Shown: piece by piece, positions 1-44,515 of the stretch
How the letters are laid out: every line of letters starts with the position of its first letter
Numbering within the stretch: position 1 is the first letter of the stretch
Source: Paratrimastix pyriformis
Taxonomy: Eukaryota; Preaxostyla; Paratrimastigidae
Assembly: GCA_027972325.1 (NCBI GenBank)
Contig: JAPMOS010000107.1
Span: forward strand, 1 to 64,000
Length of the DNA: 64,000 nucleotides
Direction of reading: 5' to 3'
Translations under genes and position numbers: made by a program
The notes under the pieces: model-generated
The model's database searches: none
What the model saw: the letters and a program-made list of their open reading frames with translations, nothing else
Told to the model about the DNA's origin: nothing

Positions 1-246
1 CCCTAACCCTAACCCTAACCCTAACCCTAACCCTAACCCTAACCCTAACCCTAACCCTAACCCTAACCCTAACCCTAACCCTAACCCTAACCCTAACCCT
101 AACCCTAACCCTAACCCTAACCCTAACCCTAACCTAACCCTAACCCTAACCCTAACCCTAACCCTAACCCTAACCCTAACCCTAACCCTAACCCTAACCC
201 TAACCCTAACCCTAACCCTAACCCTAACCCTAACCCTAACCCTAAC
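1..246. repeat. Telomere repeat tract (CCCTAA)n
   Basis: About 41 head-to-tail copies of CCCTAA (TTAGGG on the other strand) from the first base. One unit near 133 is short by one base. C-rich strand at the 5' end is the orientation expected for the physical left end of a chromosome. Confidence 0.98.
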
Positions 247-937
247 GTACCAGACATAACCCTAACGTACCAGACATAACCCTAACGTACCAGACATAAC
301 CCTAACGTACCAGACATAACCCTAACGTACCAGACATAACCCTAACGTACCAGACATAACCCTAACGTACCAGACATAACCCTAACGTACCAGACATAAC
401 CCTAACGTACCAGACATAACCCTAACGTACCAGACATAACCCTAACGTACCAGACATAACCCTAACGTACCAGACATAACCCTAACGTACCAGACATAAC
501 CCTAACGTACCAGACATAACCCTAACGTACCAGACATAACCCTAACGTACCAGACATAACCCTAACGTACCAGACATAACCCTAACGTACCAGACATAAC
601 CCTAACGTACCAGACATAACCCTAACGTACCAGACATAACCCTAACGTACCAGACATAACCCTAACGTACCAGACATAACCCTAACGTACCAGACATAAC
701 CCTAACGTACCAGACATAACCCTAACGTACCAGACATAACCCTAACGTACCAGACATAACCCTAACGTACCAGACATAACCCTAACGTACCAGACATAAC
801 CCTAACGTACCAGACATAACCCTAACGTACCAGACATAACCCTAACGTACCAGACATAACCCTAACGTACCAGACATAACCCTAACGTACCAGACATAAC
901 CCTAACGTACCAGACATAACCCTAACGTACCAGACAT
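247..937. repeat. Telomere-associated 20-bp tandem array
   Basis: About 34.5 near-perfect copies of a 20-bp unit made of GTACCAGACATA plus AACCCTAAC-type telomeric sequence. Each unit keeps one telomere motif, so the array looks like telomere repeat regularly interrupted by a 12-13 bp insert. No coding potential. Confidence 0.97.
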
Positions 938-1137
938 CCCGCTCACCAGACATCCCGCTCACCAGACATCCCGCTCACCAGACATCCCGCTCACCAGACA
1001 TCCCGCTCACCAGACATCCCGCTCACCAGACATCCCGCTCACCAGACATCCCGCTCACCAGACATCCCGCTCACCAGACATCCCGCTCACCAGACATCCC
1101 GCTCACCAGACATCCCGCTCACCAGACATCCCGCTCA
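938..1137. repeat. Subtelomeric 16-bp tandem array
   Basis: 12.5 copies of CCCGCTCACCAGACAT. The last eight bases (CCAGACAT) are shared with the adjoining 20-bp array, so the two arrays are related and the junction is seamless. Confidence 0.96.
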
Positions 1138-1480
1138 TTCACCCCCTTCTTTCTCCCCCCACCTCGATTCGAACTCTGGACCTTTTCCTCGGCAAAAACT
1201 TCTTTCTCCTCCTAGACCACGCCTATCTCGGACATGCTCGTGAGCAGGGAGCGTCATTCTTTTCGAAGCCTTGGCCGCGAAAGAATGCCAATCATCACCG
1301 CTCGATGTGAGCATTGAACGGTTCGGGGAGGAGGAGTGGGAGGGGAGGGGGAGGAGGGGAGGGGGGAGGGGGAAGGTGCTCGATTGGTGAAGAGCACTTG
1401 TCTGATATTCCCGTTCGCGTCGACCGGCTGCAAGGTGCCTGAAAACCAGCATCGACGTCAACCCGCAACCGACCATCTTG
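1138..1480. other. Gap between subtelomeric arrays and first gene
   Basis: No gene seen. Holds a purine-rich stretch (1325-1375) and, on the minus strand, a weak tRNA B-box-like GTTCGAATC near 1166-1175 that does not fold into a tRNA by eye. It probably includes the 3' UTR of the minus-strand RalGAP gene. Confidence 0.5.
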
Positions 1481-12969
<11,489 letters not shown>

Positions 12970-14537: not shown

Positions 14538-16473
14538 TCAGCCAAACCTCCAGTCATCATCGGCATCCTCATCGTCGTCATCACCATCGTCATCACCATC
14601 GTCATCGTCGAATACCTTCTCCTTGCCCTTTACGGGCAAAGGGGGCGGGATGGGGAACGGAGACAGTCCAAACTGGCGCGACTGGGATTGGATGGAGAGC
14701 GCAAGCTCCTGGACGGCGGGGATGGTGCTCTCCCCCAGGATCCGGAGCTGGGGTGGGAAAGCGGAGGGTGGGACACTGTAGGGAACCGGGCCACCTCCGC
14801 CCCGACTCCGACCCGAGGCCCCTGGGTGCGGTGCGGAGGGCGGACCATGTCGATGACCTCGTCGGCCTTGTAGAAGGGCCTGATGGCCCGGTAGTCCGAG
14901 TGGCGCAGGAGCCCGTCGAGGCACATGAGCAGCTCGAAGGCGGTCTGCGGGCGGCCAGCCCGGCAAGGGCACCATGAGGGAGAGGAAGGGCGAGCGGGGA
15001 GGCGCCAGACATCATCGGTGGGCTCAAGGGCCCCCAGGCGCCGGAGCAGGATGTCGACAAGCAGGGTGGTCGTGTTCCGAAAGCAGAGCTTGGCGCAGAG
15101 CTCCGGGTGGTTGAGCATCCGCCCGAGGGTGGCCGTCGTGCCCGGGACTGCGGGTGGGCGGAAGGGCGGGTGGGGGTGGGCCGGTGGGCCGCAAGTGGGC
15201 AAGCGAGCGGGCGGAGGCGAGTAGGCGGAAGCGAGTAGGCGGAAGCGGGTGGACGGAAGCGAGTGGGCGGATCGCAGAGCGAGCGATGTGGGTGGGTGGG
15301 CCAGGGCGTGGCGGACCATCGGCGTTGAGGGCCTCCAGGAAGCCCTCGAAGAAGATGCGCACGTTCTCGTGGAGCTCGAGCATCCCCGGCAGCGGGTCCG
15401 TGGCAGAATCGAAGCGCCTCGAGACGGCGATCTGGCGGATGGGTGGGGCGCGGAGGGATCGGCGAAACCGAATGATGCGCGAGGCCCGTAAAGCAAACGG
15501 ACCAGCAGGGCGCACGCATGCGAAGCCAGCGGCTCAGCCGTGTCGACCAGGTCGAGGACCCGCGCAATGACGGCCACCTCGTGGCCCGCCTGGGGGGGCT
15601 CGCTGGGGACCCTACCCGGATCGGGCCGGTCGGTGATGACCTGGGCCTGTCCGCAGTGAGGCATGAGGGAATGGAAAGGGGCGTCCGCCATAATGGTGGG
15701 TCCGGCATCGGGGAGGGGGACGCGAACCGGAGGGGCGAGCACCGGAGGCAGGATACGGAGCAGCGACTGCATGTCGATGGATGAAAGCCAGGCCACCGGG
15801 GCGCCGGGAGGAGGAGGAGGAGGAAGAGAGGATGTTGGGTTCTCCAGCGATTGGAGAGCGGGCAACGAGAGCGGGAGATGGGATGGCAAACCGCCCAGGG
15901 CAGTGAGGGGGGAGTTGTTATTACCCAAGGATTGGGCGCCCAAAGGGCCGGCTGGGGGTGGGGGAAGGGGAAGGGGAAGAGGAGGAAAAGACAGGGGAGG
16001 AAGCGGGGGCGGGAGAGGCGGCGGCGGTGATGGTAGTGGCGGCGGTGGTGGCGGTGGTGGTGGCGACGGTGGTGGCGGCGGCTGTGGGAAGGGGGTGGTC
16101 GTCGTCGTTTGGGATGGGGGCGAGCCGGAACGCGGTAAAAAGATCCGGAAGCAAAGGTCATCGGGGATGACGCCCTCGGAAACAAGGAGGGTAAGCAGGT
16201 GCACAGCCAGACAAAGCGTCTCGCCTGGGGGGGGGGGGGGGGGGGGATTGACAAGAGCAAACAAGAAGGCGACTAACCTTCGTCGATGTTTTGACAAAGG
16301 ATATCGACAAGAAACGAGCTCAGCGCGCCGACAGGACAGAGTTCGGCGATCGATTTGGGGCGTGAGCAGATGGCCAGAAGAGATCTCAGGATAGGAACCC
16401 GATCGGCCGAATTTCCGGCTTCTGGATTTTGTGCAAAAAAAGCTGAGATTTCTTCATCCGAGCTCAGGTCCAT
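14538..16473 (-). CDS. SPIN90/Dip1/Ldb17-like leucine-rich-domain protein
   Basis: Probable member of the WISH/Dip1/SPIN90 family, which activates Arp2/3 complex to seed linear actin filaments. The first exon (from ATG 16473) is acidic and helical and ends FLVDILCQNIDE. A GTTAG donor then joins ETLCLAVHLLTLLVSEG. A long proline-rich segment follows (about 15800-16150), then armadillo-like helices: ARVLDLVDTAEPLASH, NVRIFFEGFLEALNAD, and the family-like pair MLNHPELCAKLCFRN and TLLVDILLRRLGALE, followed by YKADEVIDMV. The C-terminus is an Asp-rich tail ending at 14538. The match to the family is by pattern, not alignment; another armadillo-type protein is possible. It diverges from NAA15 with a 154-bp spacer. 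Confidence 0.5.
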
Positions 16474-35667: not shown

Positions 35668-36927
35668 TCATAAGGCGCTTCCCGAGGAGGAGGGACGCGG
35701 GAGGGACGGGACCGCGCCCGGCGCAAGAGCGGCGAAGTCGCCTCCCACCAGGGGCGGCAGCCGGGTGACCCCCGAGTGGTGGTGCTGGGCGGGTCGGGAC
35801 CGGGGGCTGCTACCGTTGCCACTGCCCGTGGCCGTGGCCGTGCCTGTGGGGTTACCGCCTGCGGGACCCGTGCCTGTGGGGCTGGGCGGGCCGGTCCGGG
35901 TGCGGCCCGGGGATGTGGCCGGGTGGCGGGCGGCTCCGTGGCTGGCGGGCCGAAAGACGGCCGTCGGGGAGTTGGGCGGGCTGGGCGTGCCCGGCCCCGA
36001 GGCCGAGGCGGGACCCCCGCCGGCAGGGCCGCTTGTGGATGTGGGGGCGCCGGGCAGCGAGGCCGAACCCACGGCCAGCCCCAGCGGGGGCAGAGAGGAG
36101 AGCGACGAGGGCCTCCGCATGGCGTACGCCGCCGGGGCCGCCGGGGGCGGGAAGGGCGACGAGGCCGTGGCCGCAGCCGTGGTGGAGACCGTGGCCGAGG
36201 CCGTGGCGCTGGCGGTGGTGCCCTGGAAGCGGGGCCCCAGGGGCGGCGACGGGACTTGGCCCGGGCCCGAATGTCGGGGCGAGCCCGCCCCACCCGGGGC
36301 AGCCACTGGAGGGGGGGGCGTGGCCACCAGGGGGTGGCGGGCAGGGAAGGTGGGACCGGCGCGAGGAGGGAGGATGTGCTGGACGGGGGTCGGGGGCCGG
36401 CGCAGGTTGGCCCGGTCGTGCCGCATGGCACCCTCGAAGGACGACAGCGCTGCGAGAGCGGGGCGTGGGGGCCGGGGGGGCGGGGCGATGCCAACGTGAG
36501 GGCGGGGAGCCGCGGGTGGCCTGACGGCAGACCGTCGCGAATGGCCTGCGGGCCGCGCGAGAGGAGGCCCCGGGGGATGACCCCGTCGGCGAACCCCTTC
36601 AGGGCGATGATGGCCTCGCGCTCTTGGCTGTCCGACCGACGCCAACAGCCGCCCACCCAGCCGCCCGCCCGCCCAGGTCCACAGGCATGCGGTGAGTCCC
36701 GGCCACGGCGCGCCGAGGGACGGAGGGGAAGAAGGCACGCGGCTGGGCGGGCGGTGACCGACGGACCGCAGGGTGGTGAACATGCGCAGGAGTGTCCCGA
36801 TGGCCATCACCTTGAGCCGCATCTCGTTGCGCCGCTTGACGGCGGCCGCGTCGTCCTCGTCGTCCTCCCGCTGGGCCTCGCACCACTGGAACATGGTCAG
36901 CAGCATGTGCGTCGCTGCGGGGCACAC

Positions 36928-37001
<74 letters not shown>

Positions 37002-37982
37002 CCCAGGGTTAGATCGACTATCACACTTTTTTTCGTCCAGTCCGCTTCATTCCATGGAGGATGAGGCGGATTGTTTTGAAGAAGGAGACGATGCCGCTCG
37101 AGATGATGATTTCGTAGAATTTGATGAGGAGAATGCCGATCCCGATCCAATTGATGAGACACACGATCATTTCACTGATGTCCCCAAGAATGGGACTGAC
37201 GCTCAATGCCCAATGTGCAAAGACTCCGCCAAGTTCCGTGCATATCCTTATCGTGCCGAAGTTTTCTGCCGTCGGTGCGCAGTCAAGGAGTCATTCTTTA
37301 TGCCAGATGCTGATCTCAAACTGGTTCCCGTTCCGCATTGGCCTAACATCGCGTGGAATGCCATCATTGGAGGGGATTATCATTTTCTACCGACGCCATG
37401 CCTTCACGTTCGATCGCCCACTGCAAGTGTTCTGGCCGAGCCCGAGGATGAAGCATTCTTTGCCTTGCCCGAGCGACTGGAGAAGTTCTTCCTCACGGGG
37501 ACCGCCCCCCCGAAGCAGCAGGCCAAGCCCGTCAACCGCCGTGCCCATCGTGCCAAGCGCTCCGCACGAGACCCGCTCGCGACCGCGACGTCCCCCGTCC
37601 CGATCTCTCCCGAAGAGTGTGAGGCTAGGGATATAACACAAACAACTCCCGCTTTAAGCCTCACCGCCTCGAGGGGTGGTGATCAGGAACGTCTGGATGT
37701 CCCCGCCGTGGCCCGCCTCGATGCCCTGCACCTGACCGACGTGCCGCCCACCACTGCCCACCCTGGCAAGTGACCAGGGGGCGGCCCGGGGTAAGCCCCT
37801 GGCACCCAGGTGAACCCCGGTAATCTATGTACCTTTCTCCCTTCTGCCAACTGTTTGTGCGTTGGGTGATTTCCTTTCTCCCCCCTTTCCCCTTTTACGG
37901 GCCCCGGTGGCTCGGTTTTCCGGAATAGAGAGAGAGAGGTCTTCGTGTTCCCTTTACGGGCCCCGGTGGCTCGGTTTCCGGA

Positions 37983-38040
<58 letters not shown>

Positions 38041-39017
38041 CCCAGGGTTAGATCGACTATCACACTTTTTTTCGTCCAGTCCGCTTCATTCCATGGAGGA
38101 TGAGGCGGATTGTTTTGAAGAAGGAGACGATGCCGCTCGAGATGATGATTTCGTAGAATTTGATGAGGAGAATGCCGATCCCGATCCAATTGATGAGACA
38201 CACGATCATTTCACTGATGTCCCCAAGAACGGGACTGACGCTCAATGCCCAATGTGCAAAGACTCCGCCAAGTTCCGTGCATATCCTTATCGTGCCGAAG
38301 TTTTCTGCCGTCGGTGCGCAGTCAAGGAGTCATCCAGATGCTGATCTCAAACTGGTTCCCGTTCCGCATTGGCCTAACATCGCGTGGAATGCCATCATTG
38401 GAGGGGATTATCATTTTCTACCGACGCCATGCCTTCACGTTAGATCGCCCACTGCAAGTGTTCTGGCCGAGCCCGAGGATGAAGCATTCTTTGCCTTGCC
38501 CGAGCGACTGGAGAAGTTCTTCCTCACGGGGACCGCCCCCCCGAAGCAGCAGGCCAAGCCCGTCAACCGCCGTGCCCATCGTGCCAAGCGCTCCGCACGA
38601 GACCCGCTCGCGACCGCGACGTCCCCCGTCCCGATCTCTCCCGAAGAGTGTGAGGCTAGGGATATAACACAAACAACTCCCGCTTTAAGCCTCACCGCCT
38701 CGAGGGGTGGTGATCAGGAACGTCTGGATGTCCCCGCCGTGGCCCGCCTCGATGCCCTGCACCTGACCGACGTGCCGCCCACCACTGCCCACCCTGGCAA
38801 AGTGACCAGGGGCGGCCCGGGGGTAAGCCCCTGGCACCCAGGGGTGAACCCCGGTAATCTATGTACCCCTTTCTCCCCTTCTGCCAACTGTTTGTGCGTT
38901 GGGTGATTTTCTCCCCCCTTTCCCTTTTACGGGCCCCGGTGGCTCGGTTTTCCGGAATAGAGAGAGAGAGTCTTTCTCGTGTTCCCTTTTACGGGCCCCG
39001 GTGGCTCGGTTTCCGGA

Positions 39018-39073
<56 letters not shown>

Positions 39074-40047
39074 CCCAGGGTTAGATCGACTATCACACTT
39101 TTTTTCGTCCAGTCCGCTTCATTCCATGGAGGATGAGGCGGATTGTTTTGAAGAAGGAGACGATGCCGCTCGAGATGATGATTTCGTAGAATTTGATGAG
39201 GAGAATGCCGATCCCGATCCAATTGATGAGACACACGATCATTTCACTGATGTCCCCAAGAACGGGACTGACGCTCAATGCCCAATGTGCAAAGACTCCG
39301 CCAAGTTCCGTGCATATCCTTATCGTGCCGAAGTTTTCTGCCGTCGGTGCGCAGTCAAGGAGTCATCCAGATGCTGATCTCAAACTGGTTCCCGTTCCGC
39401 ATTGGCCTAACATCGCGTGGAATGCCATCATTGGAGGGGATTATCATTTTCTACCGACGCCATGCCTTCACGTTAGATCGCCCACTGCAAGTGTTCTGGC
39501 CGAGCCCGAGGATGAAGCATTCTTTGCCTTGCCCGAGCGACTGGAGAAGTTCTTCCTCACGGGGACCGCCCCGAAGCAGCAGGCCAAGCCCGTCAACCGC
39601 CGTGCCCATCGTGCCAAGCGCTCCGCACGAGACCCGCTCGCGACCGCGACGTCCCCCGTCCCGATCTCTCCCGAAGAGTGTGAGGCTAGGGATATAACAC
39701 AAACAACTCCCGCTTTAAGCCTCACCGCCTCGAGGGGTGGTGATCAGGAACGTCTGGATGTCCCCGCCGTGGCCCGCCTCGATGCCCTGCACCTGACCGA
39801 CGTGCCGCCCACCACTGCCCACCCTGGCAAAGTGACCAGGGGGGCGGCCCGGGGTAAGCCCTGGCACCCAGGGTGAACCCCGGTAATCTATGTACCCTTT
39901 CTCCTTCTGCCAACTGTTTGTGCGTTGGGTGATTTCCTTTCTCCCTTTCCCTTTTACGGGCCCCGGTGGCTCGGTTTTCCGGAATAGAGAGAGAGAGAGG
40001 TCTTTCTCGTGTTCCCTTTTACGGGCCCCGGTGGCTCGGTTTCCGGA

Positions 40048-40109
<62 letters not shown>

Positions 40110-41093
40110 AGGGTTAGATCGACTATCACACTTTTTTTCGTCCAGTCCGCTTCATTCCATGGAGGATGAGGCGGATTGTTTTGAAGAAGGAGACGATGCC
40201 GCTCGAGATGATGATTTCGTAGAATTTGATGAGGAGAATGCCGATCCCGATCCAATTGATGAGACACACGATCATTTCACTGATGTCCCCAAGAACGGGA
40301 CTGACGCTCAATGCCCAATGTGCAAAGACTCCGCCAAGTTCCGTGCATATCCTTATCGTGCCGAAGTTTTCTGCCGTCGGTGCGCAGTCAAGGAGTCATC
40401 CAGATGCTGATCTCAAACTGGTTCCCGTTCCGCATTGGCCTAACATCGCGTGGAATGCCATCATTGGAGGGGATTATCATTTTCTACCGACGCCATGCCT
40501 TCACGTTAGATCGCCCACTGCAAGTGTTCTGGCCGAGCCCGAGGATGAAGCATTCTTTGCCTTGCCCGAGCGACTGGAGAAGTTCTTCCTCACGGGGACC
40601 GCCCCCCCGAAGCAGCAGGCCAAGCCCGTCAACCGCCGTGCCCATCGTGCCAAGCGCTCCGCACGAGACCCGCTCGCGACCGCGACGTCCCCCGTCCCGA
40701 TCTCTCCCGAAGAGTGTGAGGCTAGGGATATAACACAAACAACTCCCGCTTTAAGCCTCACCGCCTCGAGGGGTGGTGATCAGGAACGTCTGGATGTCCC
40801 CGCCGTGGCCCGCCTCGATGCCCTGCACCTGACCGACGTGCCGCCCACCACTGCCCACCCTGGCAAAGTGACCAGGGGGGCGGCCCGGGGGTAAGCCCCT
40901 GGCACCCAGGGGTGAACCCCGGTAATCTATGTACCCCTTTCTCCCCTTCTGCCAACTGTTTGTGCGTTGGGTGATTTCCTTTCTCCCCCCTTTCCCCTTT
41001 TACGGGCCCCGGTGGCTCGGTTTTCCGGAATAGAGAGAGAGAGAGGTCTTTCTCGTGTTCCCTTTTACGGGCCCCGGTGGCTCGGTTTCCGGA

Positions 41094-41153
<60 letters not shown>

Positions 41154-42060
41154 CCCAGGGTTAGATCGACTATCACACTTTTTTTCGTCCAGTCCGCTTC
41201 ATTCCATGGAGGATGAGGCGGATTGTTTTGAAGAAGGAGACGATGCCGCTCGAGATGATGATTTCGTAGAATTTGATGAGGAGAATGCCGATCCCGATCC
41301 AATTGATGAGACACACGATCATTTCACTGATGTCCCCAAGAACGGGACTGACGCTCAATGCCCAATGTGCAAAGACTCCGCCAAGTTCCGTGCATATCCT
41401 TATCGTGCCGAAGTTTTCTGCCGTCGGTGCGCAGTCAAGGAGTCATCCAGATGCTGATCTCAAACTGGTTCCCGTTCCGCATTGGCCTAACATCGCGTGG
41501 AATGCCATCATTGGAGGGGATTATCATTTTCTACCGACGCCATGCCTTCACGTTAGATCGCCCACTGCAAGTGTTCTGGCCGAGCCTGAGGATGAAGCAT
41601 TCTTTGCCTTGCCCGAGCGACTGGAGAAGTTCTTCCTCACGGGGACCGCCCCGAAGCAGCAGGCCAAGCCCGTCAACCGCCGTGCCCATCGTGCCAAGCG
41701 CTCCGCACGAGACCCGCTCGCGACCGCGACGTCCCCCGTCCCGATCTCTCCCGAAGAGTGTGAGGCTAGGGATATAACACAAACAACTCCCGCTTTAAGC
41801 CTCACCGCCTCGAGGGGTGGTGATCAGGAACGTCTGGATGTCCCCGCCGTGGCCCGCCTCGATGCCCTGCACCTGACCGACGTGCCGCCCACCACTGCCC
41901 ACCCTGGCAAAGTGACCAGGGGCGGCCTGGGGTAAGCCCCTGGCACCCAGGTGAACCCCGGTAATCTATGTACCCCTTTCTCCCCTTCTGCCAACTGTTT
42001 GTGCGTTGGTGATTTCTCCCCCTTTCCCTTTTACGGGCCCCGGTGGCTCGGTTTTCCGGA

Positions 42061-42096
<36 letters not shown>

Positions 42097-44515
42097 GTGC
42101 CGCCCACCACTGCCCACCCTGGCAAAGTGACCAGGGGGGCGACCCGGGGGTAAGCCCCTGGCACCCAGGGGTGAACCCCGGTAATCTATGGACCCCTTTC
42201 TCCCTTCTGCCAACTGTTTGTGCGTTGGGTGATTTCCATTTCTCCCCCCTTTCCCCTTTTACGGGCCCCGGTGGCTCGGTTTTCCGGAATAGAGAGAGAG
42301 AGCAGCCCATCGGCCCATCAGCCCATCGGCATCATCAACATCAGGGAACAGGTCAACAGCATCCTACCCCCCCCCCCCCCCCCCCCCCCCCCCCCGCCAC
42401 GTACCACAGAACGGGACGGTACTCACACCAGAACAAGGGGCAGGGACAGGGGCGGAGAGCAGAGTTCCGCACGGATGGCATCTGGCCGTTTCGGGTCAGA
42501 AGATCCAATAACACAGACGGACGCCACCCTCCTCTCTGCGTCGCTGCGGGGCGCCCCGGGGGAAGCGTCCAAGAGGGCAACCCACCAGCAAGGGGCGGCA
42601 AGGGGCACCAGCAGGGCACCAGCACCGGGGGCAGCAGGCAGCGCCGGGACGGACTGTTTTCGGCGACGAACGGGAGCGACCACTGGAAGACGTCCAAGAA
42701 GTTGGGCAGGTAGTACTGCCGGCCCGCCCCAGCCCAGCGCCCAAGCAGAGCATGGCATTGGCAGGGCAGGGTTGGGCAGAGTGAGCGCCCAAGCAGAGCA
42801 GAGCAGAGGTTGGGGCGGTGGGGCGATGGCAGCCGGGGGATCAACAGACAGGATGCGGGGAGGGCCCGAACTGGCGGAAATGCACCTTGTCGTTCTTGAT
42901 GAGCAGGATGGCGCCCTGAGCGACGCCCGGCCCCGGGAGGGAAGTTGAAGTTGAAGTTGTGGGTGGTGGGTGTGGGTGGTGGGTGGTGACCAGGAGGCTC
43001 AGGACGGGGTGCCGTGGGACTGGGCGGACCTGGTTCTGGAAGGTGTCGACGTAGTTTGGGGCCGAGAAGACCGTGATCACCGTGGGGAAGCTGCTCTCGC
43101 CCGTGCGGCGGTAGTGCATCTCGTAGCTGGACCGGGACCGGGACCGGACCGGGGGCACCGCACAGGCAATGTGAGACCGCCCAAACAGCGGAGCATGCCC
43201 CACCCCCTTTGTGCACAGCTCCCAGGGCTGGGGCAGACCCCTTCGCCTTGGCCTCGTGGGCCCGAACGATGGCCACGAGGCTGTTGTCCCGCAGAAACTG
43301 CCGAACAGCACCCCCTCTGCCAGACAAGTGACAGCAGGCAGCCGAACCCGATGAGACGGGGTCAGAAGGCAGCCCCAGTGTGTGTGTGCGCGTGGGGGAG
43401 GGGGGAGGGGGGAGGGGAGGGGGCAGGGCAACAAGGGGTCGCGGGCAAGCGGCCGACCCGAAGAAATAGCCACAGTTGCGGGTGCTGTTGGGCACGAATG
43501 TCGTCACGCCGCTCTCATCAACCGCCAGCGGATCCGACCAGAGCAGGTCGCTGCACGACAGCCAGAGACCGGGCGGGAGGGCGGAGGAGGCCACCGTCAG
43601 TCCGGCAAAGGGCAGCCGGAAGGTGGCCAGACCAGAGGGGCCCACTCTCGGGGACTTCGCAGAAGCGGTTGATCTTCCCGATGTCCTCGATCTGCGTGGG
43701 GGTCCAGTGGAGCGGAAGGTGTCAGCACCCCCCAGGGATGCCGCCCGCGGGGCGGGACAGGCCTTCTTGATGTCGGGCGAGAGGCCCCCGTGGACGCAGA
43801 AGAAGCGGCGCTCCCCACAGAGGGCCGCGATGGGCAGGCAACAGAAGGCCCCCAGGATGGCCTCGTAGATGTGCAGGTCGTACTTGTAGAGACACTCTTT
43901 CTTGAAGTTGAAGTGGTCCGTCAGCTGGGCGCTCTCGTGGTTCCCCCGCAGCAGAAAGAAGTTATCCGGGTAGCTCACTTTCAGGGCGAACAGGTGGATG
44001 ATCAACTCCAGGCCGAACGACCCGCGGTCCACAAAGTCCCCTGGATGTATGGGCGCGTCAAAATGAATGGGTGTGTGTGTGGGGGTTACCCGGAGCACGA
44101 GCAGACCCATGAAAAGGTAGGAGCAACTGGGGGTTCCAGGGTCGCCGCCGACTTCGAGCAGTTTCAAAAAATCGAAGTATTGGCCATGAAGATCGCCACA
44201 TACCCGTGTCTCACCGGAAAGAACCACAACATTCGGTTCTCTTCGGAAGGCATCCGCTGCAAGACGGACGAGCTTCATAAGAGCTTCCTTTGAGAGTTTC
44301 CCTTCATGAGAAAGATGGTCTCGGAGAAGCGCCAAGTTGACACATGGCTGAATGGGCGAATGCGTCGAAGTGATGAATAATTCGGATTCGGAGAGGGTGT
44401 TCCGAGCGATATTGGGACAATCTGGGACCGGCCGTAATTTGGGATCAACTCCCAATATTTCTTTTGGGGGCTCTGATGTCGGCTCTGTTTGCTGGTTTGC
44501 GGCCAGTTCTCACAA
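35668..44515 (-). CDS. PPP3C: Calcineurin A, catalytic subunit of protein phosphatase 2B
   Basis: Ca/calmodulin-dependent Ser/Thr phosphatase. Catalytic exons at about 42657-44515: DPKLRPVPDCPNIARN, LLRDHLSHEGKLSKEAL, VCGDLHGQYFDFLKLLEVGG, FVDRGSFGLELIIHLFALKV, FLLRGNHESAQLTDHFNFKK, FFCVHGGLSPDIKK, SDLLWSDPLAVDE, IVRAHEAK, VITVFSAPNYVDTFQN. Metal ligands of GDxHG, GDxVDRG and GNHE type are present. The calcineurin-B-binding helix YYLPNFLDVFQWSLPFVAEN is cut by a 5.74 kb intron (36915-42654; donor GTCCG, acceptor GCAG). It resumes as TTHMLLTMFQWCEAQ, in phase. Then come the calmodulin-binding-like RLKVMAIGTLLRMFTTLR, ALKGFADGVIPRGLLSRG, autoinhibitory-like SFEGAMRHDRANLRRPP and a Pro/Ala-rich tail. 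The start is unresolved: no in-frame ATG between the first catalytic exon and a stop near 44515. Confidence 0.92.
37054..37773 (+). CDS. Acidic zinc-ribbon protein, array copy 1 (intact)
   Basis: Open frame of 239 residues from an ATG right after the conserved leader. The N-terminus is strongly acidic (MEDEADCFEEGDDAARDDDF). A zinc ribbon follows: CPMC, 16 residues, CRRC (CX2C-X16-CX2C). Then a conserved-looking segment DADLKLVPVPHWPNIAWN and a basic, Ala/Pro-rich tail (NRRAHRAKRSARD). I know no family with this arrangement; nucleic-acid binding is a guess from the ribbon and the basic tail. The stop (TGA at 37771) is unique to this copy because one A of the GGCAAAGTG seen in other copies is missing. 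The 5' half is AT-richer than the surroundings, like true gene starts here. No intron is needed, though one of about 40 nt near 37620-37665 is possible. Confidence 0.65.
   Translation: MEDEADCFEEGDDAARDDDFVEFDEENADPDPIDETHDHFTDVPKNGTDAQCPMCKDSAKFRAYPYRAEVFCRRCAVKESFFMPDADLKLVPVPHWPNIAWNAIIGGDYHFLPTPCLHVRSPTASVLAEPEDEAFFALPERLEKFFLTGTAPPKQQAKPVNRRAHRAKRSARDPLATATSPVPISPEECEARDITQTTPALSLTASRGGDQERLDVPAVARLDALHLTDVPPTTAHPGK
38093..38805 (+). pseudogene. Zinc-ribbon array copy 2, frame disrupted
   Basis: Nearly identical to copy 1 but lacks eight bases after the ribbon (around 38334). The frame from the ATG ends shortly after the second CX2C (ESSRC, stop at 38342-38344), while the rest of the protein stays open in the +1 frame. 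The ribbon itself is intact, so an 83-residue acidic ribbon protein could still be made. Confidence 0.7.
39126..39835 (+). pseudogene. Zinc-ribbon array copy 3, frame disrupted
   Basis: Same eight-base loss as copy 2. In addition it lacks three C in a C run near 39570, a change shared with copy 5 but not with copies 2 and 4. First frame 39126-39377 encodes 83 residues. Confidence 0.7.
40159..40871 (+). pseudogene. Zinc-ribbon array copy 4, frame disrupted
   Basis: Same eight-base loss; keeps the longer C run like copies 1 and 2. First frame 40159-40410 encodes 83 residues. Confidence 0.7.
41206..41915 (+). pseudogene. Zinc-ribbon array copy 5, frame disrupted
   Basis: Same eight-base loss and the short C run of copy 3, plus a private substitution (GAGCCTGAGG near 41585). 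First frame 41206-41457 encodes 83 residues. Confidence 0.7.
42062..42303 (+). repeat. Truncated sixth array unit
   Basis: The (GA)n tract runs straight into the 3' end of the unit (GACGTGCCGCCCACCACTG), so the whole ribbon gene is deleted. The trailer and a final short GA run mark the array's right edge. Confidence 0.9.

Follow-up and report, generated by a model that had tools for sequence, protein, structure and literature searches.

A tandem array lying antisense to calcineurin A in the genome of Paratrimastix pyriformis most probably (at a rough probability of 0.75) consists of copies of a non-autonomous, protein-coding non-LTR retroposon, element A, that relies on borrowed LINE machinery, and not of a working set of genes. 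The array was analysed within a window of 64 kb, which is the whole stretch of DNA studied. Element A spans ∼0.93 kb and comprises a short leader, a single zinc-ribbon ORF, a unique 3′UTR and a tail of ∼60 nt ending in (GA)n. It occurs dispersed in the genome with a common 3′ end, variable 5′ starts and frequent boundaries at GA tracts, and four of the array units share a deletion.

Five full units and a truncated sixth were found on the plus strand, the calcineurin gene being on the minus strand (Table 1). The starts of the full units are spaced 1033–1047 nt apart, in agreement with the antisense array of five full and one truncated units of 1.03–1.05 kb described in an earlier note on this DNA; its claim of a (GA)n tract for each unit also holds, since a GA tract precedes or follows every one. 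Outside the array, (GA)8 is present at one place only in the window, and none is expected in shuffled sequences. In units 1–4 the A element is followed by a 5′-truncated copy of a second, LINE-like type of element (C). The truncation is the same at the four junctions of this composite unit, small indels apart.

Table 1. Features of the array, its host gene and distant relatives of the C element (positions refer to the window unless a contig is named)
Feature	Position	Strand	Remarks
Calcineurin A exon following the array intron	36767..36914	-	TTHMLL...MFTTLR; calcineurin-B-binding helix
Calcineurin A intron	42654-36915	-	5,740 nt; phase 1; GT-AG; based on in-phase join and homology
Calcineurin A exon preceding the array intron	42655..42715	-	YYLPNFLDVFQWSLPFVAEN; its own 5′ edge approximate
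(GA)35 tract	36930..37000	+	5′ of unit 1
Unit 1	37002..38040	+	Full-length A element, 5′-truncated C element and GA tail
ORF of unit 1	37054..37773	+	Sole intact array ORF; 239 aa (P0001); C52-X2-C55-X16-C72-X2-C75
A-type 3′ tail of unit 1	37868..37938	+	...CGGGCCCCGGTGGCTCGGTTTTCCGGAATA(GA)n; left edge approximate
5′-truncated C-type (LINE-like) element	37939..38039	+	Last ∼45–50 nt and GA tail
Unit 2	38041..39073	+	A element with 8-nt deletion (frameshift at ∼38334) and truncated C element
Unit 3	39074..40106	+	8-nt deletion at ∼39367
Unit 4	40107..41153	+	8-nt deletion at ∼40400
Unit 5	41154..42063	+	8-nt deletion at ∼41447; without C element after the tail
Unit 6	42094..42302	+	5′-truncated A element from element position 737; own tail
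A-type tail core, units 2–6	38930, 39957, 41003, 42034, 42262		
Tail core of the truncated C element after units 2, 3 and 4	38992, 40022, 41068		
Distant C-ORF-end matches linked to RVT_1	C124 (frame 1118), C495 (frame 856), C101:195814 (frame 1478)		

The units had been taken for a private array of the calcineurin locus, a reading that did not survive a search of the genome. The unit leader plus ORF gave 21 matches, 9 of near full length (5 in the array and the others in contigs C311, C394, C101 and C477) and 12 partial, and 5′-truncated copies are present. The tail core followed by (GA)n was found at 302 genome sites (≤2 mismatches), against 0 for the reversed pattern, and this tail is common to two other element types, B and C; frameshifts in four of the five full units also speak against that reading. 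In all three types the 3′ end is constant and the 5′ truncation variable, as in LINE-type retroposition: starts were located at element positions 1, 4, 10, 506, 710, 737, 742 and others in A, at 556, 573, 586, 607, 627, 723, 729 and 745 in B, and at 20, 200, 220, 247, 261, 288, 312, 327, 373 and others in C. Of 57 rows, including 9 for array units, 43 had the 5′ boundary within a GA tract, by a count made without a shuffled control. Among the 14 rows starting outside a GA tract, four are cross-type and lie within the element of another row, one marks the edge of the B reference, and the others are misses, either real or unclear; cross-type rows also occur among those in GA tracts. With (GA)n in the target as well as in the tail, target-site duplications are not distinguishable.

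Two further candidate carriers of the tail, at window position 15785 and at the RT (reverse transcriptase) locus L044, proved on reading to be chance fuzzy matches. The structure of the tail RNA was dropped as proof: the fold was better than that of shuffled sequences for B (z = −3.10) and C (z = −2.70) but not for A (z = −0.83), and essentially no covariation was present in the alignment of the hairpin (term 0.05).

B and C have a related ORF end, by which both of these 5′-truncated types are LINE-like; their copies were read as far as that ORF end, none through to an RT. Searching with the C ORF end rendered at least 148 matches (150 of 232 candidates scored). In contigs C1–C137, 23 of the 28 matches with ≥43% identity were followed on their own strand, at ≤300 nt, by a tail core, while 0 of the 23 with lower identity had a listed tail core downstream; this comparison covers exact cores at 100 of the 302 sites, excludes the 10 array sites and may be incomplete for its last contig. 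Distant matches (31–38%) were located downstream of RVT_1 hits, sharing their strand and lying in a frame of equal length (Table 1); the tail was not observed in these RT-linked relatives. No RT was seen within a GA-tailed element in the copies examined, and the B/C domain was absent from 30 of 30 RT loci (∼1.5 kb on either side of the RT). The LINE that adjoins the tail in C311 and C394 (L009 and L010), which has an RT-like frame (RVT_1, E = 6.6e-5, below the cut-off), was rejected as the partner: in 84 rows (40 of 683 candidates scored) no other copy runs on through the tail, and its long rows end at query positions 1,114–1,318 of 1,561, in or before a (GT)n stretch. A zinc-ribbon relative in C484, which follows an RT-containing frame of 3,263 codons at a distance of ∼400 nt, was also discarded as a LINE ORF, since a 97% copy in C47 has no RT nearby among the matches listed and the 3′ end differs; it is treated here as a separate dispersed element.

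The same distribution might alternatively stem from a zinc-ribbon gene of the host that was copied and relocated through DNA-level exchange at GA microsatellites, with no reverse transcription and with the tail hitch-hiking between GA tracts. DNA-level duplication is indeed clear in places: the array and three identical truncated B copies in L011 are plainly tandem duplications, C311 and C394 have a collinear block (LINE + C + B + A) in common, and the failure to find an RT in a GA-tailed copy would fit as well. This origin is nevertheless unlikely for the elements as a whole, as it accounts neither for the many 5′ starts that accompany a constant 3′ end in three types of element, nor for a tail shared with elements that are distantly related, by their coding end, to RT-bearing frames.

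An acidic protein had been assigned to each unit, yet the 239-codon frame is present in unit 1 only. In units 2–5 a common 8-nt deletion right behind the second CX2C pair shifts the frame and splits each ORF into two fragments (residues 1–81 and 79–239); it is missing in unit 1 and in the copies in C311, C394, C101 and C477. The description of the protein as zinc-ribbon-like and without a known family was borne out, no match exceeding the Pfam cut-off, and the family is an orphan. The one Pfam match obtained up to E 0.1 (Zn_Ribbon_Prim, E = 0.0084) was sub-threshold and was rejected as a homologue; a PML fragment from the PDB search (E = 0.08) was not accepted either, and neither Pfam nor PDB sequence searches revealed Gag homology. 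Comparison of the ORFs of unit 1 and C477 gave dN 0.045 and dS 0.114 (dN/dS ∼0.40), which for this one pair suggests some past constraint on the ORF between copies of element A. Such constraint, the intact ORF of unit 1 and the orientation antisense to calcineurin could also be expected if the nested genes formed a functional array and its antisense transcription adjusted the splicing or expression of calcineurin. A role of this kind is very improbable, given the frameshifts in units 2–5 and the dispersal of array elements elsewhere in the genome; moreover, the deposited protein PAPYR_9589 (P0005), which spans two array units, leaves out the broken stretch, and this points to a forced prediction.

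The host gene encodes a catalytic domain followed by a calcineurin-B-binding helix, as calcineurin A (PPP3C) does, and the best match of its 5′ reading frame among PDB sequences was 9b9g, protein phosphatase 3 catalytic subunit alpha (E = 1.9e-69). The calcineurin A intron of 5.74 kb proposed in the earlier note stands. With donor GTCCGTCCC and acceptor CCGCAG, the exon join VAEN/TTHMLL keeps the phase, and the joined peptide is gap-free at the junction when aligned to the solved calcineurin A 4orb (PDB) and to the Blattamonas orthologue (P0010; 49% over 103 aa). In a six-frame search with this orthologue the array locus was the best match, other loci matching in parts only. We infer that calcineurin is spliced across the array. 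Introns of this genome had been described as usually below 100 nt; the five others placed in this gene, which has further introns beyond these, are all short (66, 82, 143, 114 and 139 nt), but three exceed that limit. The deposited calcineurin model (P0009, 396 aa) ends within the 5′ part of the array intron and lacks the calcineurin-B-binding helix. The donor lies 352 nt past the end of unit 6. On the calcineurin strand the (GA)35 tract reads (CT)n and ends 15 nt before the acceptor; the element ends are thus not at the splice sites of the array intron, unlike those of an introner. An assembly artefact affecting unit number or position is very improbable. Homopolymer-length noise is seen between units, and the assembly was built with Canu from Nanopore and PacBio data and polished afterwards (PMC10703272); against an artefact, the units carry specific variants, units 5 and 6 end differently, the flanks are unique on both sides and in phase with calcineurin, and the element is present at unlinked places.

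If the array is made of retroposon copies, element A, having no reverse transcriptase, would be served by a LINE of the B/C kind, which would copy A RNA by target-primed reverse transcription; LINE machinery is the most likely agent because the A tail is common to the LINE-like B and C. GA/CT microsatellites, in many cases the tails left by earlier insertions, would receive the (GA)n end. A single A copy would have inserted antisense near the calcineurin intron acceptor, in a stretch rich in CT, and a 5′-truncated C copy would then have landed in its tail; after the frame-breaking deletion, the A+C composite would have multiplied by tandem duplication, through unequal exchange or slippage at GA tracts. 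A second antisense case was found in C485, where an A relic (71%) with a C-like tail lies on the strand opposite to an NRPS AMP-binding domain, between AMP-binding profile positions 236 and 237 (the second domain piece has E = 0.00013, below the Pfam cut-off); this older copy probably lies in an intron of the NRPS gene. In a survey of host genes, long ORFs were sought at 11 loci, and of the six scanned with Pfam only one (L016) gave matches.

More tentatively, A may belong to a two-part metamonad retroposon system, in which an RT-less element with a Gag-like zinc-ribbon protein would ride a LINE via a structured tail, its (GA)n would pair with GA/CT microsatellites, and antisense intron insertions would stay spliceable. 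The protein would help the RNA of its own element. Introns have CT-rich polypyrimidine tracts, which is why targeting of this kind would put the element antisense inside them; the host would thereby gain a (CT)n at the acceptor, and insertions could remain spliceable and grow to several-kb arrays without killing the gene.

Some SINEs have a 3′ tail in common with a partner LINE, a recognition of the stringent type (PMC3747384). A resembles them in being non-autonomous and RT-less, in ending in short tandem repeats and in having its last ∼60 nt in common with LINE-like elements of the same genome; unlike them, it encodes a 239-aa protein, and no known SINE head was found. In positions 36800–42800 ARAGORN detected 0 tRNA genes and Rfam 0 matches up to E 1 that might indicate a Pol III-type head, and the 239-codon ORF separates A from SINEs, which have no long ORF. 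Nor is A an autonomous LINE, its 0.93 kb containing one long ORF and no RT. HeT-A, from Drosophila telomeres, is presented in PMC5537684 as a non-LTR type of element without an RT, which depends on RT in trans and forms head-to-tail arrays, and A would share all these traits. It differs from HeT-A, as there described, in its acidic, zinc-ribbon-like protein with no Gag relation found, in a target consisting of GA tracts and not chromosome ends, and in an array that appears to have grown by composite-unit duplication. The telomeric LINEs GilM and GilT of Giardia encode their own RT and sit between subtelomere and telomere repeats. They form head-to-tail, partly 5′-truncated non-LTR copies in a metamonad (PMC5537684, in part), as the A array would do in another; the latter, however, lies within a gene intron, and the telomere at the left window end is ∼37 kb away.

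A would be a variant of a known theme (SINE/LINE tail sharing, HeT-A), in which the new feature is a protein-coding, RT-less retroposon with a tail common to LINE-like elements, now added to P. pyriformis, a free-living metamonad; a search of the open-licence literature showed no paper on the mobile elements of this species among the titles listed. Two deposited proteins become doubtful, namely calcineurin A of the array locus, which has lost its regulatory half, and PAPYR_9589, which derives from two broken element copies. If true, antisense polypyrimidine-directed insertion would offer a simple way for large insertions to be maintained in compact introns.

The frame at the calcineurin locus of the window (coordinates of all features in the table) matched calcineurin A (PDB 9b9g, E 1.9e-69), and when the Blattamonas protein was used in a six-frame search this locus was the best match (63%), the remaining loci rendering partial matches only (e.g. 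contig C251, 45% over 94 residues). Manual placement at GT-AG borders that preserve the phase gave six introns, of 66, 82, 143, 114, 5,740 and 139 nt, the gene having further introns outside this count. The longest houses the zinc-ribbon array, and the exons flanking it do join in phase, linking VAEN to TTHMLL, as the earlier note had claimed. The peptide joined over this intron aligned through the junction with two other calcineurins, a solved calcineurin A (PDB 4orb) and that of Blattamonas (49% over 103 aa); the donor, GTCCGTC, is also the start of the next calcineurin A intron. The deposited gene model (P0009) gives the splice no support, since it ends within the array intron and lacks the binding helix. 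The same model treats at least one other placed intron as coding. The window is the initial 64 kb of contig C10, opens with a telomere, and belongs to an assembly of 56.06 Mb. Matches to the proteins PAPYR_8793, PAPYR_13233 and PAPYR_9589 assign it to P. pyriformis, a free-living metamonad with a genome obtained from long reads by Canu assembly and polishing (PMC10703272).

Location of the array, its host gene and related features
Sequence	Position	Strand	Feature
Window	1-1137		(CCCTAA)41, then subtelomeric repeats of 20 nt (retaining a telomere-like piece) and of 16 nt
Window	7106-8270		Degenerate GT-tailed LINE copy, 70-84% identity to the L009 LINE
Window	37002, 38041, 39074, 40107, 41154 (starts)	+	Array units 1 to 5
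Window	42094-42302	+	Truncated array unit
Window	42654 to 36915	-	Array intron
Window	42353-44455	-	Frame matching calcineurin A
Window	42423-44278	-	Deposited model P0009
Window	43551-43632	-	Placed intron treated as coding in P0009
C101	575728		Zinc-ribbon relative
C484 (locus L060)	11000-12500		Distant zinc-ribbon relative
L009 (locus in C311)	1290-5382		LINE whose copies end at a (GT)n tract; also in L010 (C394)
L009	6526-9840		LINE-like frame with GIY-YIG and reverse transcriptase
C1	430297-432072		As above
C484	74488-76422		As above

The array was found, as previously described, to consist of five units and a truncated piece. An acidic protein had been attributed to every unit; an unbroken frame was present in unit 1 (239 codons) but not in units 2-5, in which a common 8-nt deletion directly after the second CX2C pair shifts the frame. 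Common to these four, too, is a change from CGA to AGA, which neither unit 1 nor the copies in contigs C311, C394, C101 and C477 carry. The deposited protein PAPYR_9589 (P0005) is a single chain read from two broken units, with the damaged stretch skipped. Behind units 1, 2, 3 and 4 alike come a remnant of a C element (about its last 45-50 nt) and then a long GA tract, the truncation point of C being the same in all four, small indels aside. The near-identity of these composites and their common broken frame mean that the array grew through duplication of one composite unit, not by repeated landings. Seen from the calcineurin strand, the GA tract ahead of unit 1 is (CT)35 and stops 15 nt short of the splice acceptor; it may be the original landing site.

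The anatomy reported earlier is real, but at its core is a mobile element cluster, and the element is dispersed instead of being confined to this array. Genome matches to a unit's leader and reading frame numbered 21, those to its 3' part far more. The core of the tail, CGGGCCCYGGTGGCTCGGTTT, occurs at 302 genome sites with at most two mismatches, and the reversed pattern at none. The window and 13 loci, 14 sequences in all, contained 48 tail sites; a slightly looser rule again gave 48, assigned by upstream sequence to A, the zinc-ribbon unit (15), B, whose frame ends in ...KKMLLPGAA (11), and C, ending in ...FDANLLVRAR (14), with 8 unassigned. The tail alignment spans GTGATTTC...GGAATA(TG)AGAGAG. 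Copies of all three types have many different start points and one common tail end. The start lay within a GA tract in 43 of 57 rows, which are non-independent (nine are array units, and cross-type hits occur in both the 43 and the 14); elsewhere in the 64 kb (GA)8 occurs at one other place, and in shuffles at none. Varied 5' starts, mostly in GA tracts, together with a fixed tail are what LINE-type retroposition would leave if it targeted GA tracts, the tails of earlier copies among them.

The 95-aa frame end of C had at least 148 matches (the best 150 of 232 candidates being scored). On contigs C1-C137, 23 of the 28 matches of at least 43% identity had one of the exact tail cores listed no more than 300 nt downstream on their own strand, mostly at 135 or 145 nt; none of the 23 matches below 43% did. 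In C124, C495 and C101, distant matches of 31-38% follow hits to the reverse transcriptase domain RVT_1 on the same strand at a distance of 1.2-1.4 kb, match and hit sharing an open-frame length (1118, 856 and 1478, respectively). B and C thus look like 5'-truncated relatives of LINEs. The RT-bearing cousins in C124 and C101 had no tail core among those listed, the B/C frame-end domain appeared in none of the 30 RT loci examined, and no GA-tailed copy was seen with RT. A first partner candidate, the LINE beside the tail in C311 and C394, was rejected because its other long copies, among 40 of 683 candidates scored, stop in or before (GT)n. In several copies of this LINE the 3' ends are in tandem about every 98-104 nt. 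L009 also bears a LINE-like frame with a GIY-YIG domain upstream of the reverse transcriptase, followed in another frame by an RNase H domain (E 2.5e-9); further GIY-YIG/RT frames, paired by equal open-frame length for both domains, occur in C1, C484, C458, C476, C266 and C222. A GIY-YIG domain preceding a reverse transcriptase that is accompanied by RNase H seems an uncommon combination.

Contig C485 has a second, older case: a relic of A (71%), its tail C-like, lies antisense within an NRPS gene. The AMP-binding domain is broken around it, between profile positions 236 and 237, the short second piece (E 0.00013) falling under the Pfam cut-off; the break would represent an intron, not damage. 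The host-gene Pfam scan gave matches at one of six loci, C485 only, and antisense placement is suggestive from this case and calcineurin A, two cases being no statistic.

The zinc-ribbon family, unfamiliar to the earlier reader, matched no Pfam family at its cut-off in a profile search, and a PDB profile search gave a single weak match (E 0.08). Searched twice against 5.8 billion proteins, under length limits that excluded long ones, it had 3 and 5 matches, the second search scoring the best 8,000 candidates; all named matches are from P. pyriformis, and the remaining one (P0004) is 98% identical to the array frame. Both CX2C pairs are kept in relatives in C101 and C484. The C484 relative is itself dispersed, with partial copies in C47, C124, C112 and C74, and its 3' end, GTAGTAGTAATAAAT, differs from the tail. 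In a genome-wide protein search, residues 1-239 were stop-free in three of nine near-full-length copies (unit 1, C311 and C477). A comparison of unit 1 with the C477 copy gave dN 0.045 and dS 0.114, values by which the protein was probably useful to the element or the host.

SINE/LINE pairs (PMC3747384) and HeT-A (PMC5537684) are close in logic to this element, but the features tested do not show it to be a member of either. Most likely, it is a protein-coding retroposon that lacks a reverse transcriptase, has its tail in common with LINE-like elements and inserts into GA tracts.
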